Of a DNA stretch of 37,821 nucleotides, positions 9,920 through 35,147 are shown in pieces (position 1 is the stretch's first letter; each line of letters opens with the position of its first letter). Under the pieces are notes generated by a model. The model was not told where the DNA came from, ran no database searches, and was given only the letters and a program-made list of their open reading frames with translations. This DNA comes from Alphaproteobacteria bacterium (GTDB lineage: Bacteria > Pseudomonadota > Alphaproteobacteria > Micavibrionales > Micavibrionaceae). The DNA is taken from positions 1 to 37,821 of the forward strand of contig JAJRSA010000035.1 in the NCBI GenBank assembly GCA_024279035.1, written 5' to 3'. A program made the translations under genes and the position numbers.

Positions 9920-10008
9920 ACCACGGATAGACACAGATAAACACAGATTATATTTTTTGCTCTATCAACATCTGTGTTTATCTGTGTTTATCTGTGTCTA
10001 TCCGTGGT
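9920..10008. repeat. 29-bp perfect inverted repeat built of decamer tandem units
   Basis: The left arm (9920-9948) is the exact reverse complement of the right arm (9980-10008), with a 31-nt loop. The right side is made of tandem 10-mers (ATCTGTGTTT twice, then ATCTGTGTCT and ATCCGTGGTT); one extra unit (9970-9979) falls in the loop. It lies between the 86-aa EamA-like gene and lolD. In the operon transcript it would fold into a very stable hairpin about 25 nt before the lolD start. Similar ATCTGTGTTTATC-type intergenic repeats are, from memory, scattered in many environmental genomes. Confidence 0.85.
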
Positions 10009-14063: not shown

Positions 14064-14160
14064 GTCATTCCCTGAATTATAGAAGGTAATTCTAGGGGAA
14101 TCCTGTAGAATATAGATCCCTAGATCGCCCTAGAATATATGAATATATTCAGGCGATGAC
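14064..14160. repeat. Palindromic GTCATTCC...ATGAC element (type 2)
   Basis: A 97-bp element made of two hairpins: CCCTGAATT...AATTCTAGGGG and GCCCTAGAAT...ATTCAGGC. It shares ends and both hairpin arms with the copy at 24592-24676, while the loops differ in sequence and length. It fills the gap between rnj and the symporter-like gene and may also stop transcription. No coding capacity. Confidence 0.8.
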
Positions 14161-16798: not shown

Positions 16799-16866
16799 GT
16801 CATCCTGAACTTGTTTCAGGATCTGGTGAATAGAGACATGAGATCCTCAAACAAGTTCAGGATGAC
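16799..16866. repeat. Palindromic GTCATCC...GGATGAC element (type 1, copy 1)
   Basis: A 68-bp element: 25-bp end units that are near-perfect reverse complements, around an 18-nt spacer. Each end unit is itself a palindrome (ATCCTGAA-CTTGT-TTCAGGAT). The right arm here has one substitution. Copies 2 and 3 (25339-25406, 35080-35147) have the same total length, with unrelated spacer sequence. Confidence 0.9.
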
Positions 16867-24591: not shown

Positions 24592-24676
24592 GTCATTCCC
24601 TGAATTGTCACAGACAATTCTAGGGGAATCTCTCTCTGGATCGCCCTAGAATGGTTAGAACCATTCAGGCGATGAC
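24592..24676. repeat. Palindromic GTCATTCC...ATGAC element (type 2) between nuoJ and nuoK
   Basis: An 85-bp element of two hairpins: CCCTGAATTGTC-aca-GACAATTCTAGGG, then CGCCCTAGAATGGTT-ag-AACCATTCAGGCG. It shares termini and arms with 14064-14160, with different loops. It lies inside the nuo operon, so it is transcribed and would fold in the message, ending just before the nuoK ribosome-binding region. Confidence 0.8.
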
Positions 24677-25338: not shown

Positions 25339-25406
25339 GTCATCCTGAACTTGTTTCAGAATCTCATGCCTACATTCCCCAGATCCTGAAACAAGTTCAG
25401 GATGAC
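25339..25406. repeat. Palindromic GTCATCC...GGATGAC element (type 1, copy 2)
   Basis: A 68-bp element between nuoI and nuoJ, with the same 25-bp end units and 18-nt spacer length as copies 1 and 3. The left unit has one substitution (CAGAATC instead of CAGGATC). Confidence 0.9.
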
Positions 25407-27397: not shown

Positions 27398-29419
27398 CTA
27401 AGCCGCCTTCTTTATTTTTGTCTTTGTTTTTTTAGGATAAAATTTGTCAACGCACGCGCGCATCGTTTTCGACGCACGACAAATGACATTGGTCATGTAG
27501 TAATGATCAATGGTATTTTTAAATCCACTCTTAAGAAGGACGCCTGTGACACCAAACTGACCCCATTCTTCCTGAGGGCACACATCAATCTCTGCAAAAT
27601 GCGCCCATTCCTCCGTAATGCGCGCACGCAACGCAAGAAGAGAATTGTAAGGGAGTGTTTTACCGAGTTCCTCAGAAAGTGCTCTGATGATTTTCCAATC
27701 TTCTTTGGCCTCTCCGACAGGAAAGACAGCTTGACGAGTCATCTGTACGCGTCCCTCTGTATTCACATACAAAGCATTCTTTTCAGTATAAGTTGCCGCA
27801 GGGAGAATAACATCAGCACGATGCGCGCCAAGATCTCCATGATGCCCCTGATAAATAACAAATGCATTTTTATTACAATTGTTTATAATATTTTCCTCAT
27901 CTGAGTTAAGAAGATAAACAACGTCCATTTCTTCTGTTTTTATAGGCGCAGCAGAGACAAATCCTACATCCAAAGCCCCCACTCGACCTGCATGACGATG
28001 AAGGACATTAAAGCCATTCCAATCATCTTGAATACATCCAATTTTTTCTGCCAGATCACGACACACGGCATGAAGAGCGAGAGCATCTGTGCGAGAAAAA
28101 ATTTGATCGCCGACAATAATCATTGGCTTTTGAGAGTCTTTGACTGTGTATTTTTCTATATCCTGAGCCGTTGTGCCTAAATGTTCGTAGGGATAAGGCA
28201 GGTCAACAGGCTCACCAATTAAAGAGATAGGAAGGCGCTTATTCAACCATGTTTTGCGGATACGCGCATTCACAAGCGCGGCTTCCATTTTAGGGTTTGT
28301 TCCAATCAAAAGAAGTGAATCCGCCTCTTCAATGCCTGCAATCCCAGAATTAAAGATATACCCTGCACGTGTTGAAGGATCAATGCGCATGCCATCTGTC
28401 CTACATTCTATATGTGGTGAGCCAAGAGAGATCATTAAATCTTTAAGCGCCACAACAGAGTCTACATCTGCTAAATCTCCAGAAAATGCTGCAATTTTAT
28501 CTGGTGATGTTGCTCTCATGGCCTCGGCCACAGAGGTCAAAGCCTCACTCCATTTTGCTTTTTCAAGCTTTCCTGTGGTTTTACTACGCACATAAGGTAC
28601 ATCAAGACGGTTTTTCTTTAATCCATCATAGGCAAAGCGCGTTTTATCACTGATCCATTCTTCATTCACCCCCTCATGAAGACGCGGTAAAATACGCATC
28701 ACTTCTCCGCCTTTTGTGTCGACACGAATATTAGATCCTACCGCGTCATGAACATCAATGGTTTCCGTCTTTTTCAGTTCCCATGGACGTGCTGTAAACG
28801 CATAGGGCTTAGACGTTAAAGCTCCGACAGGACAGATATCAATCATATTACCTGAGAGCTCTGAGCTTACTGCCTTTTCAACAAACGTTCCAATTTCGAC
28901 ATCTTCCCCGCGATTCAAAAGCCCGAGATCCGCCGTCCCTGCAATTTCTTCTCCAAAACGTATACAGCGTGTGCACTGGATACAGCGTGTCATCACAGTT
29001 TTAATCAAAGGCCCAATATCTTTGTCTTTGACGGCGCGCTTAGTCTCTTGATAGCGAGACCGATCAAAGCCATAGCCATAAGATTGATCTTGTAAATCAC
29101 ACTCTCCGCCTTGGTCACAAATCGGACAATCCAGAGGATGATTAATGAGCATCATCTCCATCACGCCTTTGCGCGCCTTTTGAATCATCTCGGAATTGGT
29201 TGTAATATCCATCCCTTCTCCAGCCTCAATTGCACAAGAAGCCACAGGTTTAGGCGCATTTTTCAGCTCCACCAAACACATACGGCAATTGGCAGGCACG
29301 CTGAGCTTATCATGATAGCAAAAACGAGGAATCTCAACGCCAAGCATCTCCGCCGCCTGTAAGACAGACGTGCCTTTCTCAACCTCAATGAGCATTCCGT
29401 TTATCTTTAGCTTTGGCAT
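27398..29419 (-). CDS. nuoG: NADH-quinone oxidoreductase subunit G
   Basis: Large iron-sulfur subunit of the NADH-dehydrogenase module. The 673-aa product begins with a [2Fe-2S] ferredoxin domain (FCYHDKLSVPANCRMCLVE), then the His/Cys cluster motif (HPLDCPICDQGGECDLQD), a [4Fe-4S] motif (CIQCTRCIRFGEEIAG...ICPVGALTSK), and a molybdopterin-oxidoreductase-like C-terminal domain of the shorter alphaproteobacterial/mitochondrial type. It ends in a Lys-rich tail. The ribosome-binding site is weak. A GIY-YIG pseudogene element lies between it and nuoF. Confidence 0.97.
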   Translation of the reverse strand: MPKLKINGMLIEVEKGTSVLQAAEMLGVEIPRFCYHDKLSVPANCRMCLVELKNAPKPVASCAIEAGEGMDITTNSEMIQKARKGVMEMMLINHPLDCPICDQGGECDLQDQSYGYGFDRSRYQETKRAVKDKDIGPLIKTVMTRCIQCTRCIRFGEEIAGTADLGLLNRGEDVEIGTFVEKAVSSELSGNMIDICPVGALTSKPYAFTARPWELKKTETIDVHDAVGSNIRVDTKGGEVMRILPRLHEGVNEEWISDKTRFAYDGLKKNRLDVPYVRSKTTGKLEKAKWSEALTSVAEAMRATSPDKIAAFSGDLADVDSVVALKDLMISLGSPHIECRTDGMRIDPSTRAGYIFNSGIAGIEEADSLLLIGTNPKMEAALVNARIRKTWLNKRLPISLIGEPVDLPYPYEHLGTTAQDIEKYTVKDSQKPMIIVGDQIFSRTDALALHAVCRDLAEKIGCIQDDWNGFNVLHRHAGRVGALDVGFVSAAPIKTEEMDVVYLLNSDEENIINNCNKNAFVIYQGHHGDLGAHRADVILPAATYTEKNALYVNTEGRVQMTRQAVFPVGEAKEDWKIIRALSEELGKTLPYNSLLALRARITEEWAHFAEIDVCPQEEWGQFGVTGVLLKSGFKNTIDHYYMTNVICRASKTMRACVDKFYPKKTKTKIKKAA

Positions 29420-29435
29420 CTCATCTAACCTATCA

Positions 29436-29794
29436 CGTCATTCCTGCGCAGGCAGGACTCCACCTTTTAATGCTGTAAACTCTCATACAAATCTGTCCAT
29501 TCTAAATTCATCTTTTCTATTTCTCTGATCTTCCACTGGCGTTTCCATTTTTTAATCGCTTTTTCCCTTTTAATAGATTCACTTATTTCGTCATGCACTT
29601 CATATCAAACCAATCTTTGGAGGTCATATGTCTTTGAGAACCCATCAACAACTTTGTTTTTATGCTCTCATATTCTTTTAGGAAGATTTGATGTGACGCC
29701 AAGATATAAAGTTCCTCTTTTTTTGTTTGTTATGATATATACATATCCTTTCTTCATGTCCCTAAAATGGATTCCCGCCTTCGCGGAAATGACG
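29436..29794 (-). mobile_element. Decayed hairpin-ended GIY-YIG element
   Basis: A 359-bp unit between nuoF and nuoG. Its ends (29436-29461 and 29769-29794) are imperfect inverted repeats, 21 of 26 positions matching, each containing a short palindrome of the GTCATTCC type. They enclose a GIY-YIG pseudogene with exactly the same codon count as the intact gene at 31775-32065. This 398-bp gene-free stretch is otherwise empty. Confidence 0.75.
29467..29757 (-). pseudogene. GIY-YIG nuclease pseudogene with two in-frame TGA codons
   Basis: Reading 29757 down to 29467 gives 96 codons plus TAA, without any frameshift: it starts MKKGYVYIITNKKRGTLYLG (GIY-YIG core) and ends with the family ending LEWTDLYESLQH. 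Two TGA codons interrupt it, at codon 30 (29668-29670) and codon 51 (29605-29607). The intact paralogue has Tyr at both positions, and relatives of this family often have Trp there, so TGG-to-TGA transitions are the likely lesions. The rest is well kept (GVTSNLPKRI, YEVHDEIS, SIKREKAIKKWKR), implying recent inactivation. Confidence 0.85.
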
Positions 29795-29817
29795 TATATG
29801 TGTTATCTGTTGAATTC

Positions 29818-31107
29818 TCATGCCGCCTTTGCCTGTTTTCTGTATACCAGAATTCTCGCCTCCATCTCAGGTCTAAAGTGACGAATAAGTCCTTGAATGG
29901 GCCATGCCGAGGCATCACCGTGCGCGCAGATTGTCTGCCCTTCTATTTCCTTGGTCAAGTCATAAAGCATATCAATTTCATCAATGGTCGCATTGCCCGT
30001 CACCATCCGTTGCATAATGCGCCAAAGCCATCCTGTGCCCTCACGGCACGGTGTACATTGCCCACAACTCTCATGCATATAAAAATAAGACAAGCGCGCA
30101 ATGGCATAGACAATATCCGTACTTTTATCCATCACAATCACGCCTCCTGTGCCTAGCCCTGAGCCCACCTCTCGTAAAGAGTCAAAATCCATTCGAATAG
30201 TCGCACATGTATCTTTTGGTAAAAGAGGCGTTGATGAGCCTCCAGGAATAATAGCAAGGAGATTATCCCATCCTCCTCGTACACCACCTGCATGTTTTTC
30301 AATGAGATCGCGGAGAGGAATCCCCATTTCTTCTTCTACATTACATGGATTTTCTACATGACCCGAAATACAAAAGAGCTTTGTGCCTGTATTTTTTTCA
30401 TCTGAGCCAAGACTCGCAAACCATGCGCCTCCACGACGTAAAATGGTTGGCACAGAGGCAATTGTTTCCACATTATTGACCGTTGTCGGACAGCTATACA
30501 ATCCTGCCATCGCTGGAAAAGGAGGCTTATTCCGAGGTTGCCCCTTCTTCCCCTCCAAACTTTCCAAAAGAGCGGTTTCTTCTCCACAAATATAGGCGCC
30601 TGCGCCACGATGCAGATACACATCAAAATCCCATCCCGATTTCGCCGCATTTTTTCCTAATAAGCCTGCCTCATAGGCTTCTTTAATCGCTTTCACAACC
30701 GCAGAGCCTTCATTATAAAACTCACCCCGAATATAGATATAGGCGGCATGTGCCCCCATCGCAAACCCTGCAATCAAAGCCCCTTCTAAGAGTTTATGAG
30801 GTTCATGACGTAAAATATCACGATCTTTACATGTCCCTGGCTCTGACTCATCCGCATTAATGACTAAATAGTGAGGTTTTTGTGTTTTTTCTGGATCAGG
30901 CATAAAGGACCATTTGAGACCCGTTGGAAATCCAGCCCCTCCACGCCCACGCAAGCCAGAGGCTTTCATCTCAGAAATAATCCAGTCCTTGCCTTTTTTA
31001 ACAAGCGCCCCTGTCCTCTCCCAATCTCCACGCGTCTTCGCTTCTGGGAGTGAAAAACGCTCAAAGCCATATAAATTTGTATAGATGCGATCTTTATCTT
31101 GGAGCAT
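29818..31107 (-). CDS. nuoF: NADH-quinone oxidoreductase subunit F
   Basis: NADH- and FMN-binding subunit of complex I. The 429-aa product has the glycine-rich [16 protein letters not shown] (FMN/NADH site), the [13 protein letters not shown] and YIRGEFYNE segments, [19 protein letters not shown] (second nucleotide-binding stretch), and the [4Fe-4S] N3 motif [10 protein letters not shown], with the fourth Cys in QTICAHGDA. The ATG lies 1 nt after the nuoE stop. Confidence 0.97.
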
Positions 31108-31108
31108 T

Positions 31109-31729
31109 TTATGAACCCACCCCTGCTTTTTTAGCTTGTTTTTCTAAACTCGTTGGTCCAGACAGCGCCATCGAGCCTACACGTTTCGTCTGAGAACCTA
31201 TGGATGGTTTTTTACCCGCAGCAAGGGCTGTCAAAATAGACACAATACTCTCCGCCGTTAAATCTTCATAATAATTATCATTGATCTGCACCATAGGCGC
31301 ATTCACGCATGCGCCAAGGCATTCCACCTCCAAAAGCGTAAAGAGTCCATCCTTTGTACTCTCTCCCACTTTGATTTCAAGATGAGTTTCCACCGCCTCA
31401 ATAATCGCCGCCGAACCACACAGCCAACACGGTGTTGTCGTGCACAGTTGCACAAGGTATTTCCCCACAGGGGCTAAATTATACATCGTGTAAAATGTGG
31501 CCACCTCATAGACTTTAATAGGCGGTTGCCCGACAGCCTCTGCAATGCAATCCATCGCAACCCTCGAGATCCATCCTTCTTGCCGTTGCGCTAAATCCAG
31601 CAAAGGCATAATACCACTGCGCGCTTGGTTAGAAGGATAATTCGCAAGAATATCCTTGACCTTCTTTTGGCTTTTAAACGAAAAGTCTTTCGGTTGATAA
31701 TCTGCGTTAGGTTCAAATTTTGGTTTCAT
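31109..31729 (-). CDS. nuoE: NADH-quinone oxidoreductase subunit E
   Basis: [2Fe-2S] thioredoxin-fold subunit of complex I. The 206-aa product has [10 protein letters not shown] and [11 protein letters not shown], which supply the four cluster cysteines, and [18 protein letters not shown] before them. About 40 residues at the C-terminus ([15 protein letters not shown]...) extend beyond the E. coli protein and are low complexity, as in other alphaproteobacteria. The ribosome-binding site is poor. The intact GIY-YIG element sits immediately upstream, between nuoD and nuoE. Confidence 0.96.
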
Positions 31730-31747
31730 ATTGTTTCTTACTTCATT

Positions 31748-32196
31748 GTCATCCCCGCGGAGGCGGGGATCTGGTCACATCAACTCATCGTACAAATCTC
31801 TCCACTCTGGATTCATTTGCTCAATCAGTCTCATCTTCCATACTCTATTCCATCTTTTCAGCCGTTTTTCTCTTTTGATCGCCTGTTCTATCTCTGTATG
31901 AACTTCATAATAAACAAGTGTTTTTATTTCATATTTCTTTGTAAATCCATCTAATATTTCATTTTTATGCTCATATATTCTCTTTACTAAATCCGACGTC
32001 ACCCCAACATAAAATGTACTATTTCTCCCTCTTGTTAAAAGATACACATAATATTGTTTTTCCATCTCTGTCCTCTCCCCTCTCTACACTGTCATCCCCT
32101 GAATTTTTGAAAAAAATTGTAAGGGGATCCGGAGCCTTATACTCTAAATCTTATCTTACCTTCCCCCGTCCAGATCCCCGCCTCCGCGGGGATGAC
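31748..32196 (-). mobile_element. Intact hairpin-ended GIY-YIG element
   Basis: A 449-bp unit between nuoD and nuoE. The left end (31748-31774) and right end (32170-32196) are 27-bp perfect inverted repeats. Each contains an 8-bp-stem palindrome (ATCCCCGC-ggag-GCGGGGAT) flanked outside by GTC. The left end directly abuts the stop codon of the enclosed GIY-YIG gene. Between the gene start and the right end, a half-unit of the type 2 repeat (GTCATCCCCTGAATTTT.., from 32091) is present, so the right side looks composite. Together with the gene this fills the 481-bp nuoD-nuoE gap. Confidence 0.8.
31775..32065 (-). CDS. GIY-YIG nuclease domain protein
   Basis: A 96-aa single-domain GIY-YIG protein of the UPF0213/YhbQ-like type. 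It has the core Y-V-Y-L-L (residues 6-10) and Y-V-G (19-21), the conserved Arg (R29 in DLVKRIYEHK), and a Glu-containing helix (EQAIKREKRLKRW). The ending NPEWRDLYDELM is shared by many family members. The domain cuts or nicks DNA in homing endonucleases and UvrC, but the activity of these small proteins is unsettled. The reading frame is intact, and the ATG at 32065 has no strong Shine-Dalgarno sequence. The stop codon touches the 27-bp inverted repeat. A decayed paralogue of identical length lies 2 kb away. Confidence 0.88.
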   Translation of the reverse strand: MEKQYYVYLLTRGRNSTFYVGVTSDLVKRIYEHKNEILDGFTKKYEIKTLVYYEVHTEIEQAIKREKRLKRWNRVWKMRLIEQMNPEWRDLYDELM

Positions 32197-32210
32197 ACAT
32201 TTTAATATTT

Positions 32211-33413
32211 TCATCGATCAATCTCCCCAAAGACAACATCCATAGAGCCAATAATAGACACAGTGTCGGCGATCATGTGGCCTTTGCTCATGAAATCTAG
32301 AGCTTGAAGGTGGTAAAATCCGGGGGCGCGTATACGACATCTAGAGGGACGGTTTGTGCCGTCGGCGATGAGATAAACGCCAAACTCTCCTTTGGGGGCT
32401 TCTACGGTGGCGTAGATTTCTCCTGCAGGAACATGGTAGCCTTCTGTGAAGAGTTTGAAATGATGGATCATGGCTTCCATGGAACGTTTCATCTCTCCGC
32501 GTGCAGGAGGCGTTATTTTATGATCATCAACAGCTATTTCGCCATCTGGAATATCGCGTAAACATTGTTGCATAATTTTTAAAGATTGACGCATTTCTTC
32601 CATCCGCACGAGATAGCGCGCATAGCAATCTCCCGTTTTTCCAACAGGCACGTCAAACTCCATCTTATCATACACTTCATAGGGTTGAGATTTTCTCAAA
32701 TCCCATGCCACACCAGAGCCTCTGAGCATTGGCCCTGTAAAGCCCCAATCTAGAGCTTCTTCTTTTGTAGCCACCCCAATATCAACAGTCCTCTGTTTAA
32801 ATATTCTGTTATTTGTGAGGAGGTTATCTAGATCATTTAAAGTATCAGGAAAGCTTTCTGTCCATGCCATCATATCCTCAATTAAGCCATCAGGGAGGTC
32901 TTTACTCACGCCTCCTGTCCGAAAGTAGTTCGCATGGAGACGCGCACCACACACACGCTCATAAAACTCCATCCCCTTTTCACGCTCTTCAAATCCCCAG
33001 AGGGCTGGTGTAATCGCCCCCACATCAAGAGCAAAGGTTGTGATATTTAAGATATGATTTAAAACACGCCCAAGCTCACAAAAAAGAACACGGATATATT
33101 GCGCCCGTTCAGGGATTTGAATGTCCAAGAGCTTCTCAGTTGCCAAGGCAAAGGCATGTTCTTGATTCATCGGGCACACATAATCCAAGCGATCAAAATA
33201 CGGCAAAGCTTGCATATAGGTTTTATACTCAATGAGTTTTTCCGTCCCACGGTGAAGCAATCCAATATGAGGGTCTGCCCGCTCAACAATCTCACCATCC
33301 AATTCCAACACCAAGCGCAACACTCCATGTGCCGCAGGATGCTGTGGTCCAAAATTCATTGTGTAGGGACGAATTTGGGTTTCTTTGTCTTTTTTGTCGT
33401 CGTGATCTGACAT
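32211..33413 (-). CDS. nuoD: NADH-quinone oxidoreductase subunit D
   Basis: 49-kDa-type subunit lining the quinone pocket of complex I, related to the [NiFe]-hydrogenase large subunit but without metal-binding cysteines. The 400-aa product has [24 protein letters not shown] (quinone-site His), [16 protein letters not shown], and [18 protein letters not shown]. It ends DVVFGEIDR, the typical ending. nuoC and nuoD are separate genes here, joined by a one-base stop/start overlap (TAATG). Confidence 0.98.
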
Positions 33414-35079: not shown

Positions 35080-35147
35080 GTCATCCTGAACTTGTTTCAG
35101 GATCTCGTATATATATTTACCAGATCCTGAAACAAGTTCAGGATGAC
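35080..35147. repeat. Palindromic GTCATCC...GGATGAC element (type 1, copy 3)
   Basis: A 68-bp element with perfect 25-bp inverted end units and an 18-nt AT-rich spacer, between the tRNA-Asp 3' end and the nuoA promoter. It could terminate the tRNA transcript. Its spacer is unrelated in sequence to the spacers of copies 1 and 2. Confidence 0.9.

Follow-up and report, generated by a model that had tools for sequence, protein, structure and literature searches.

How a small nuclease gene comes to lie, twice over, inside an operon of unrelated function, each time between inverted hairpins, is the question raised by contig JAJRSA010000035.1 of an alphaproteobacterium of the family Micavibrionaceae (assembly GCA_024279035.1), whose 37,821 nucleotides are referred to here as the window. 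The operon is the nuo operon and the gene encodes a GIY-YIG nuclease. An earlier note, made from these letters alone, likened the arrangement to that of repetitive extragenic palindromic (REP) sequences and their REP-associated tyrosine transposases (RAYTs), with the nuclease in the transposase's place. This layout is borne out across many bacteria by the analyses below, while the part played by the nuclease in mobility is a matter of inference. We consider it probable that the unit is a mobile element of the REP or REPIN (REP doublet forming hairpins) type, in which a single-domain GIY-YIG nuclease replaces the RAYT.

Matches to NCBIfam profiles identify nuoG, nuoF, nuoE and nuoD on the minus strand of the window. 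Between nuoE (31109-31729) and nuoD (32211-33413) lies a 449-bp unit with the borders GTC...GAC, which contains an open reading frame (ORF), P0001, at 31775-32065 on the minus strand, encoding a protein of 96 amino acids that matches the Pfam GIY-YIG family (PF01541, E 3e-13). P0001 is enclosed by inverted repeats at 31747-31774 and 32170-32197, each of which contains GTC and the hairpin ATCCCCGC-GGAG-GCGGGGAT, and its stop codon (31775-31777) directly abuts the first of them. The repeats had been described as perfect and 27 bp long, with one touching the stop codon; they are perfect and one does touch it, but they are 28 bp each. The features of the intact unit are as follows.

31748-31770, plus strand: outer end of the intact unit beside the stop codon, GTC tag and hairpin ATCCCCGC-GGAG-GCGGGGAT; a perfect inverted copy of 32174-32196.
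31775-32065, minus strand: P0001, the intact single-domain GIY-YIG nuclease gene, 96 amino acids; from the ORF, the PF01541 match and an AlphaFold2 model with a mean predicted local distance difference test (pLDDT) score of 93.8.
32091-32128, plus strand: lone palindrome (GTCATCCCCTGAATTTTT...GGGGATCC) within the intact element, belonging to a different family; from a palindrome scan.
32174-32196, minus strand: outer end of the intact unit upstream of the gene, palindrome as at 31748-31770; from repeat comparison.

The second unit, at 29437-29793 between nuoG and nuoF, has the same plan, confirming that two nuo-operon units share palindromic, GTC-flanked ends around a 96-codon GIY-YIG gene (31775-32065 and 29467-29757). 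As the note had also stated, this copy is decayed yet has the identical number of codons, counted by eye; it carries two in-frame TGA codons, and its ends, GTCATTCCTGCGCAGGCAGGACTCC and GTCATTTCCGCGAAGGCGGGAATCC, are imperfect. Its parts are listed here.

29437-29459, plus strand: one end of the decayed unit; from end comparison and a palindrome scan.
29467-29757, minus strand: decayed GIY-YIG gene of 96 codons with two in-frame TGA; coordinates read by eye.
29771-29793, minus strand: other end of the decayed unit; from end comparison and a palindrome scan.

Recoding of TGA in this copy was considered and rejected, and the gene was classed as a pseudogene, because TGA is the stop codon of 13 of the 30 ORFs in the window. 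Two TGG-to-TGA changes are likely; both TGA codons sit at positions that are Trp in some relatives.

Relatives of P0001 were found at 56 loci of named genomes from many phyla and in 31 of 57 genomes of the host's kin (its own included), many of which carry several copies; among phages there were none in 50,697 records. For each gene copy we scored the best GTC-tagged hairpin pair with one member on each side of the gene, tags outward and stems alike, within 350 bp. The host's kin contributed one locus per genome, from 29 genomes, and the counts cover 87 of 88 loci, one locus (L058) having given no candidate pair. The cut-off of 19 was chosen after the scores were known, and results at lower cut-offs are given as well. 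At a score of at least 19, an outward, sequence-matched pair was present around 55 of 87 gene copies and in 7 of 550 control intervals from the same loci; the corresponding figures were 66/87 and 17/550 at 18 or above, and 71/87 and 57/550 at 17 or above. When all 64 trinucleotides were compared as tags, GTC was the best with 55, followed by TCA, a one-base shift, with 19, the median being 2. Inward-facing pairs occurred at 13/87 copies; these are to be expected when a gene has whole dimers beside it. Moreover, when the ends were picked independently on each side (n = 56), 6.1 of 8 stem bases agreed, compared with 4.4 after permutation (maximum 4.95 in 5000 permutations). Eight small GIY-YIG genes of other type were taken from genomes lacking the P0001 family; the six that could be tested (27-36% identity to P0001, UPF0213-like by eye) scored 12-17, with none at 18 or more and thus no matched pair. 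The association of nuclease and hairpin is therefore both general and specific.

Nuclease and hairpin also co-vary. Among the 66 well-paired units, 57 have a readable protein, and across these 57 rows protein distance correlated with stem distance (Mantel r 0.41, a value that none of 5000 permutations reached). Presence or absence of a KxGSR or KxCSR motif at residues 70-74 went with that of an AT(T/C)GCGA stem in all 57 rows, 14 having both and 43 neither. The phyla represented among the 14 rows are Actinomycetota, Elusimicrobiota, Omnitrophota, Nitrospirota, Chloroflexota, Bacillota and Spirochaetota, in many cases by metagenome bins. The rows also include four genomes from the order of the host, in which other genomes have W-type enzymes with ATNCC-like stems; such a distribution points to horizontal spread. 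Two KKYxRxAK proteins have stems of the ATCACC or ATTGCC type. On this evidence the hairpin type appears to follow the enzyme and not the host, and a cognate pairing of enzyme and palindrome is strongly supported by these comparisons.

The enzyme itself was aligned as 45 sequences, the window protein and 44 of the 56 loci of named genomes; loci L037 and L049 (which contain stops), L047, L050, L057 and L059, and L007, L044, L053, L056, L058 and L060 are left out. Y19, G21, R29, H33, F41, L50, R65, E66, K70, R74, K77 and N85 are invariant in this set, in keeping with an active GIY-YIG site. The nearest structure to the AlphaFold2 model was UPF0213 1zg2 (Foldseek E 7e-4), and Slx1, I-TevI and UvrC also aligned, with Z scores of 5-7; such likeness of a modelled fold shows no function. 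UPF0213-type proteins (PDB 1zg2, 1ywl) thus have the nearest small single-domain fold, by the model, but their sequence match is weak (phmmer E 0.06 and 0.11) and falls short of a close sequence relationship. PADLOC and NCBIfam gave no family for the enzyme and PHROGs a weak homing-endonuclease match (E 0.003); Rfam gave no match at the gathering score over 29300-32300. One relative, L049, in an Absconditabacteria contig, has four in-frame stops under table 11, as would be expected if its host reads TGA as glycine.

The host's own genome (1.82 Mb, 40 contigs) holds four small GIY-YIG copies; its sole further PF01541 match lies in a 643-amino-acid frame, which by its size is UvrC. A paralogue without flanking palindromes would have spoken against the arrangement, but all four small copies are bracketed by GTC palindromes, the type of which differs from copy to copy. 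In three the ends are outward single ones, and the broken fourth, judged by eye (C15:41534-41737, C15 being a contig of this genome), lies between two whole dimers. The gene at C15:37791-38066 sits exactly between two perfect copies of a palindrome present 69 times in the genome at up to 3 mismatches, 45 of them exact, compared with none for a reversed-pattern control. By hand count, 56 of these 69 form 28 head-to-head pairs whose starts are 42-44 bp apart; 23 dimers of this family, when measured, were 67-69 bp long. The intact window unit's end type has 10 copies at up to 3 mismatches. Halves of the ATCGCCTG type, which has 8 exact-pattern matches in the genome, adjoin the broken copy, whose protein reads KKYRREAK; outside the 57-row set, this copy also fits the co-variation. 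With 69, 10 and 8 copies of the respective end types, the enzyme/palindrome pairs therefore differ in the extent of their spread.

A C/T-rich run (for example CTCTCCC or ACACACC) is often found just outside the GTC tag, on both sides, in the flanks of own-genome dimers L130-L149 (by eye), and the ends may therefore extend beyond the hairpin. Separately, roughly one in four of these 23 measured dimers has a ATTAAGAATAAGACACA motif about 28-31 bp beyond the GTC tags; several have it on both sides and inverted, as if the dimer were nested in a larger structure (flanks of L131, L142, L144, L146 and 16799).

Palindromes without a gene are also present in the window, where 28 GTCAT-tagged hairpins were counted at the chosen cut-off, compared with 10.6 on average, and 21 at most, when the sequence was block-shuffled 20 times. 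The main ones, to which no strand is assigned as units, are these.

16799-16866: gene-less 68-bp head-to-head dimer GTCATCCTGAACTTGTTTCAGGATC, with the same ends as the own-genome nuclease gene C15:37791-38066; from sequence comparison.
25339-25406: second gene-less dimer of the GTCATCCTGAACTTGTTTCAGGATC family; from sequence comparison.
35080-35147: third gene-less dimer of the GTCATCCTGAACTTGTTTCAGGATC family; from sequence comparison.
14064-14160: gene-less composite dimer (GTCATTCCCTGAAT... / GTCATCGCCTGAAT...), its second half being of the type beside the broken nuclease copy C15:41534-41737; from sequence comparison.
24592-24676: second composite dimer, of the family of 14064-14160; from sequence comparison.
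1429-1540: gene-less palindromes GTCATCCTCGAGGA... (plus strand) and GTCATTCCTGCGAAGGCAGGAATCC (minus strand, 1518-1540); from a palindrome scan.

The claim that gene-less elements with matching end palindromes are scattered through the window thus needs amending. They are present and share tag and layout with the intact unit, but their stems differ from it in sequence and match other paralogues in the genome rather than the two nuo copies. A single palindrome at 1515-1540 is 92% like one end of the decayed copy.

Have these units moved? A genome of the same genus (G001) is collinear with most of the region and, by eye, lacks such a palindrome at eight junctions. Its flanks are homologous on both sides at seven of these; at 16799 the right flank is not. 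At the nuoD-nuoE junction of G001 the stop and start codons overlap. In Azospirillum lipoferum, a dimer-gene-dimer arrangement lies between sufB and sufC, and this is lacking in A. ramasamyi (96.2% identity), A. oryzae (95.5%) and strain B510 (95.2%). At the level of sequence, these comparisons of occupied and empty sites show that units moved in the past.

Across 57 genomes, nuclease copy number correlated with the density of the palindrome pattern (Spearman 0.76, phylogeny ignored and chance matches to the pattern included), and this link also holds when the host family is taken by itself and when only genomes lacking a Y1 transposase match are taken. Equal abundance of palindromes in genomes without the gene would have told against the association, but the 31 genomes with the gene have a median of 29.0 pattern matches per Mb and the 26 without it 12.8 (p 3e-7, phylogeny ignored). 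One gene-less genome, G049, is nevertheless rich in them.

The borders are less uniform. The base preceding GTC is mostly C or T in 65 listed units. Only one of 23 gene-less dimers had direct repeats at its borders with p under 0.05, none beyond chance. A target duplication was looked for in 65 gene-bearing units and 23 gene-less dimers; there was no fixed one, and the picture is mixed.

Several loci give a view of the nuo junctions in particular. Among 23 loci with both nuoD and nuoE (the host's included), the junction measures at most 31 bp in 11, holds a GIY-YIG unit in 4 (one of them broken) and holds other sequence in 8; on this tally it is a general landing place. Counting decayed ones, five genomes have between them six nuclease units at nuo junctions. 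In G012 (L104/L072), each side of the nuclease unit carries a copy of 34 bp from the beginning of nuoE, with 4 differences between the two. In G029 (L106) a broken GIY-YIG gene lacks its middle part and has a dimer of other type within it, the nuoD end being repeated beyond the unit.

As a kind, the repeats are already known. CGTC-type REPs were described in 2013 in several phyla, apparently without a dedicated transposase, and Neisseria dRS3 and Rickettsia RPE-4 and RPE-6 are among them (Di Nocera, De Gregorio, Rocco, PMC3733652). These repeats have an unpaired CGTC or TGTC tag, a stem beginning AT and an unpaired CCA-type tail, and occur mostly as head-to-head dimers (PMC3733652). The ends described here likewise have an unpaired (C/T)GTC tag, an AT stem start and a short tail, and the 69-copy type resembles them in copy number and dimer arrangement, the intact window unit's type having only 10 copies; the difference is that a GIY-YIG gene is bracketed by the repeats here. 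The likeness to REP/RAYT systems and REPINs lies in a gene flanked by tagged palindromes that are also found genome-wide as gene-less dimers, and in the presence of several enzyme/palindrome pairs in one genome. The differences are a GIY-YIG nuclease (PF01541) in place of a Y1 HUH tyrosine transposase (PF01797) and a GTC tag in place of GTAG. We therefore place the window unit with the CGTC repeats and with the Ssn enzyme family considered below; it is like a REP/RAYT system in architecture yet no member of it, having a different enzyme and a different tag. Among the matches listed in a search of the open-licence literature, no paper linked GIY-YIG to REP palindromes.

In the mobile element that we favour, the order would be GTC-hairpin, short spacer, the gene for the 96-amino-acid protein, short spacer and inverted hairpin-GAC, and the nuclease would recognise the hairpin flanking its own gene. 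It would most likely nick at or near the GTC tag of the folded single-stranded form, the strand being exposed at a replication fork or during DNA uptake. Freed or recombinogenic ends could then allow the whole unit or, more often, the gene-less head-to-head dimer of two ends to be copied to new sites by repair or replication. We infer both the nicking of a single-stranded hairpin and the nuclease as agent of movement, the former because of the anatomy of the unit, likened to the nicking at GTAG that is reported for a RAYT (PMC3733652).

A number of observations weigh against this explanation. Movement is deduced from copy number and empty sites, which do not identify the nuclease as the mover of the ends. 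An enzyme that cuts but does not join has to rely on repair by the host. The intact unit's own end type is barely amplified, its only exact copies being its own two ends. The matched pair is not universal either, since 16 of 87 units score under 17, a level reached by 57 of 550 control intervals. The perfect agreement of the GSR motif with its stem amounts in the best tree to a single change (support 57/56, low), that is, to one independent pair and not to 14. G049 has 36.6 pattern matches per Mb with no P0001 relative at E 1e-8. Lastly, direct repeats at the borders rise above the 95% level of the permutations in 17 of 65 gene-bearing units, an excess that a simple single-strand model does not predict. 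Among 14 of these 17, pieces of palindrome are present in 5 and L050 is part of a tandem array; at or close to the borders, L011 has a repeat of 14 bp, L072 one of 34 bp and L084 one of 15 bp. The PF01541 matches of G049 are one small gene of other type and a 618-amino-acid frame, UvrC by size.

The alternative that survives best takes the enzyme as a genome-policing or recombination-shaping nuclease like Ssn, for which the palindromes are cleavage marks (serving, for example, to limit or steer transformation) that spread by other means, the gene having been integrated via these marks. It draws its strength from Neisseria gonorrhoeae, where a relative of P0001 with 52% identity and a KKWNRxWK motif has GTCATTCCCGC ends and lies among dRS3-type palindromes, dRS3 being a CGTC-1 repeat. 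We take this relative to be Ssn. Ssn of Neisseria reportedly cuts single-stranded repeats and modulates transformation, and Chenal et al. are said to have described in Nature Communications in 2025 the Ssn as site-specific single-strand GIY-YIG nucleases, with a Neisseria homologue, repeated genomic targets and many specificities; the emphasis of that work is reportedly on cleavage of single-stranded DNA, transformation and tools. By its homology to the Neisseria enzyme among dRS3-type repeats, the enzyme appears to belong to the Ssn family. Nonetheless, enzyme and ends travel jointly across phyla and into the interiors of operons, one genome carries several enzyme/palindrome pairs of different sequence, one of them highly amplified, and policing alone gives no reason to expect a palindrome bracket around each gene. 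We therefore regard this alternative as rather unlikely, though worth keeping in view.

Much less probable is that Y1 transposases of the IS200/RAYT type move the palindromes, with the GIY-YIG gene as passenger. GTAG-class REPs are tied to RAYTs (PMC3733652), the Y1_Tnp match in the host genome is truncated at a contig end, so that an intact copy is possible, and genomes with Y1_Tnp have somewhat more pattern matches than those without (medians 27.2 and 18.9 per Mb, p 0.04). However, Y1_Tnp is present in 14 of 57 genomes compared with 31 of 57 for the nuclease, and palindrome density remains tied to the nuclease when only the 43 genomes that lack a Y1_Tnp match are considered (p 2e-6). Twelve Y1 loci were retrieved, 9 of them with both flanks; GTCAT tags on both sides were absent from all 9, which scored 13-19, and a T-rich run accounted for the 19. 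Di Nocera et al. likewise reported no tyrosine transposase with CGTC units on its flanks (PMC3733652).

That the palindromes are ordinary terminators or mRNA-stabilising hairpins, incidentally associated with the gene, is hardly credible: they are mostly intergenic, fold well and in some cases abut stop codons, but matched pairs are about 50-fold rarer in control intervals, the two sides of the gene agree in tag polarity and stem sequence, and all 6 testable small GIY-YIG genes of other type lack such a pair.

The probable REP/REPIN-type element with its GIY-YIG nuclease has consequences beyond this locus. Palindrome types appear to track their cognate nuclease, with several pairs in one genome and one gene set against 69 near-identical repeats, so that what spreads CGTC-type REPs becomes directly testable. 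If the nuclease drives this spread, no DDE or HUH transposase would be needed to mobilise DNA. A bolder extension, put forward tentatively as a proposal whose truth we judge to be nearly evenly poised, is that GIY-YIG nucleases of the Ssn type are the dedicated mobilisers of the whole CGTC palindromic-repeat superfamily, including dRS3 of Neisseria, in a transposition-like system with no other enzyme than this small single-strand hairpin nuclease, and that residues 70-77 (KxWxRxWK, KxGSRxKK or KKYxRxAK) read the stem and could be swapped to re-target it. Such a code between enzyme and stem could help in designing single-strand nucleases of chosen specificity, and would link dRS3 of Neisseria to an origin in mobile elements.

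Elsewhere in the window, at 9920-10008, there is a perfect 29-bp inverted repeat, ACCACGGATAGACACAGATAAACACAGAT, with its arms 31 bp apart. It probably represents another repeat family, and similar CACGGAT strings occur in the flanks of L131 and L147.

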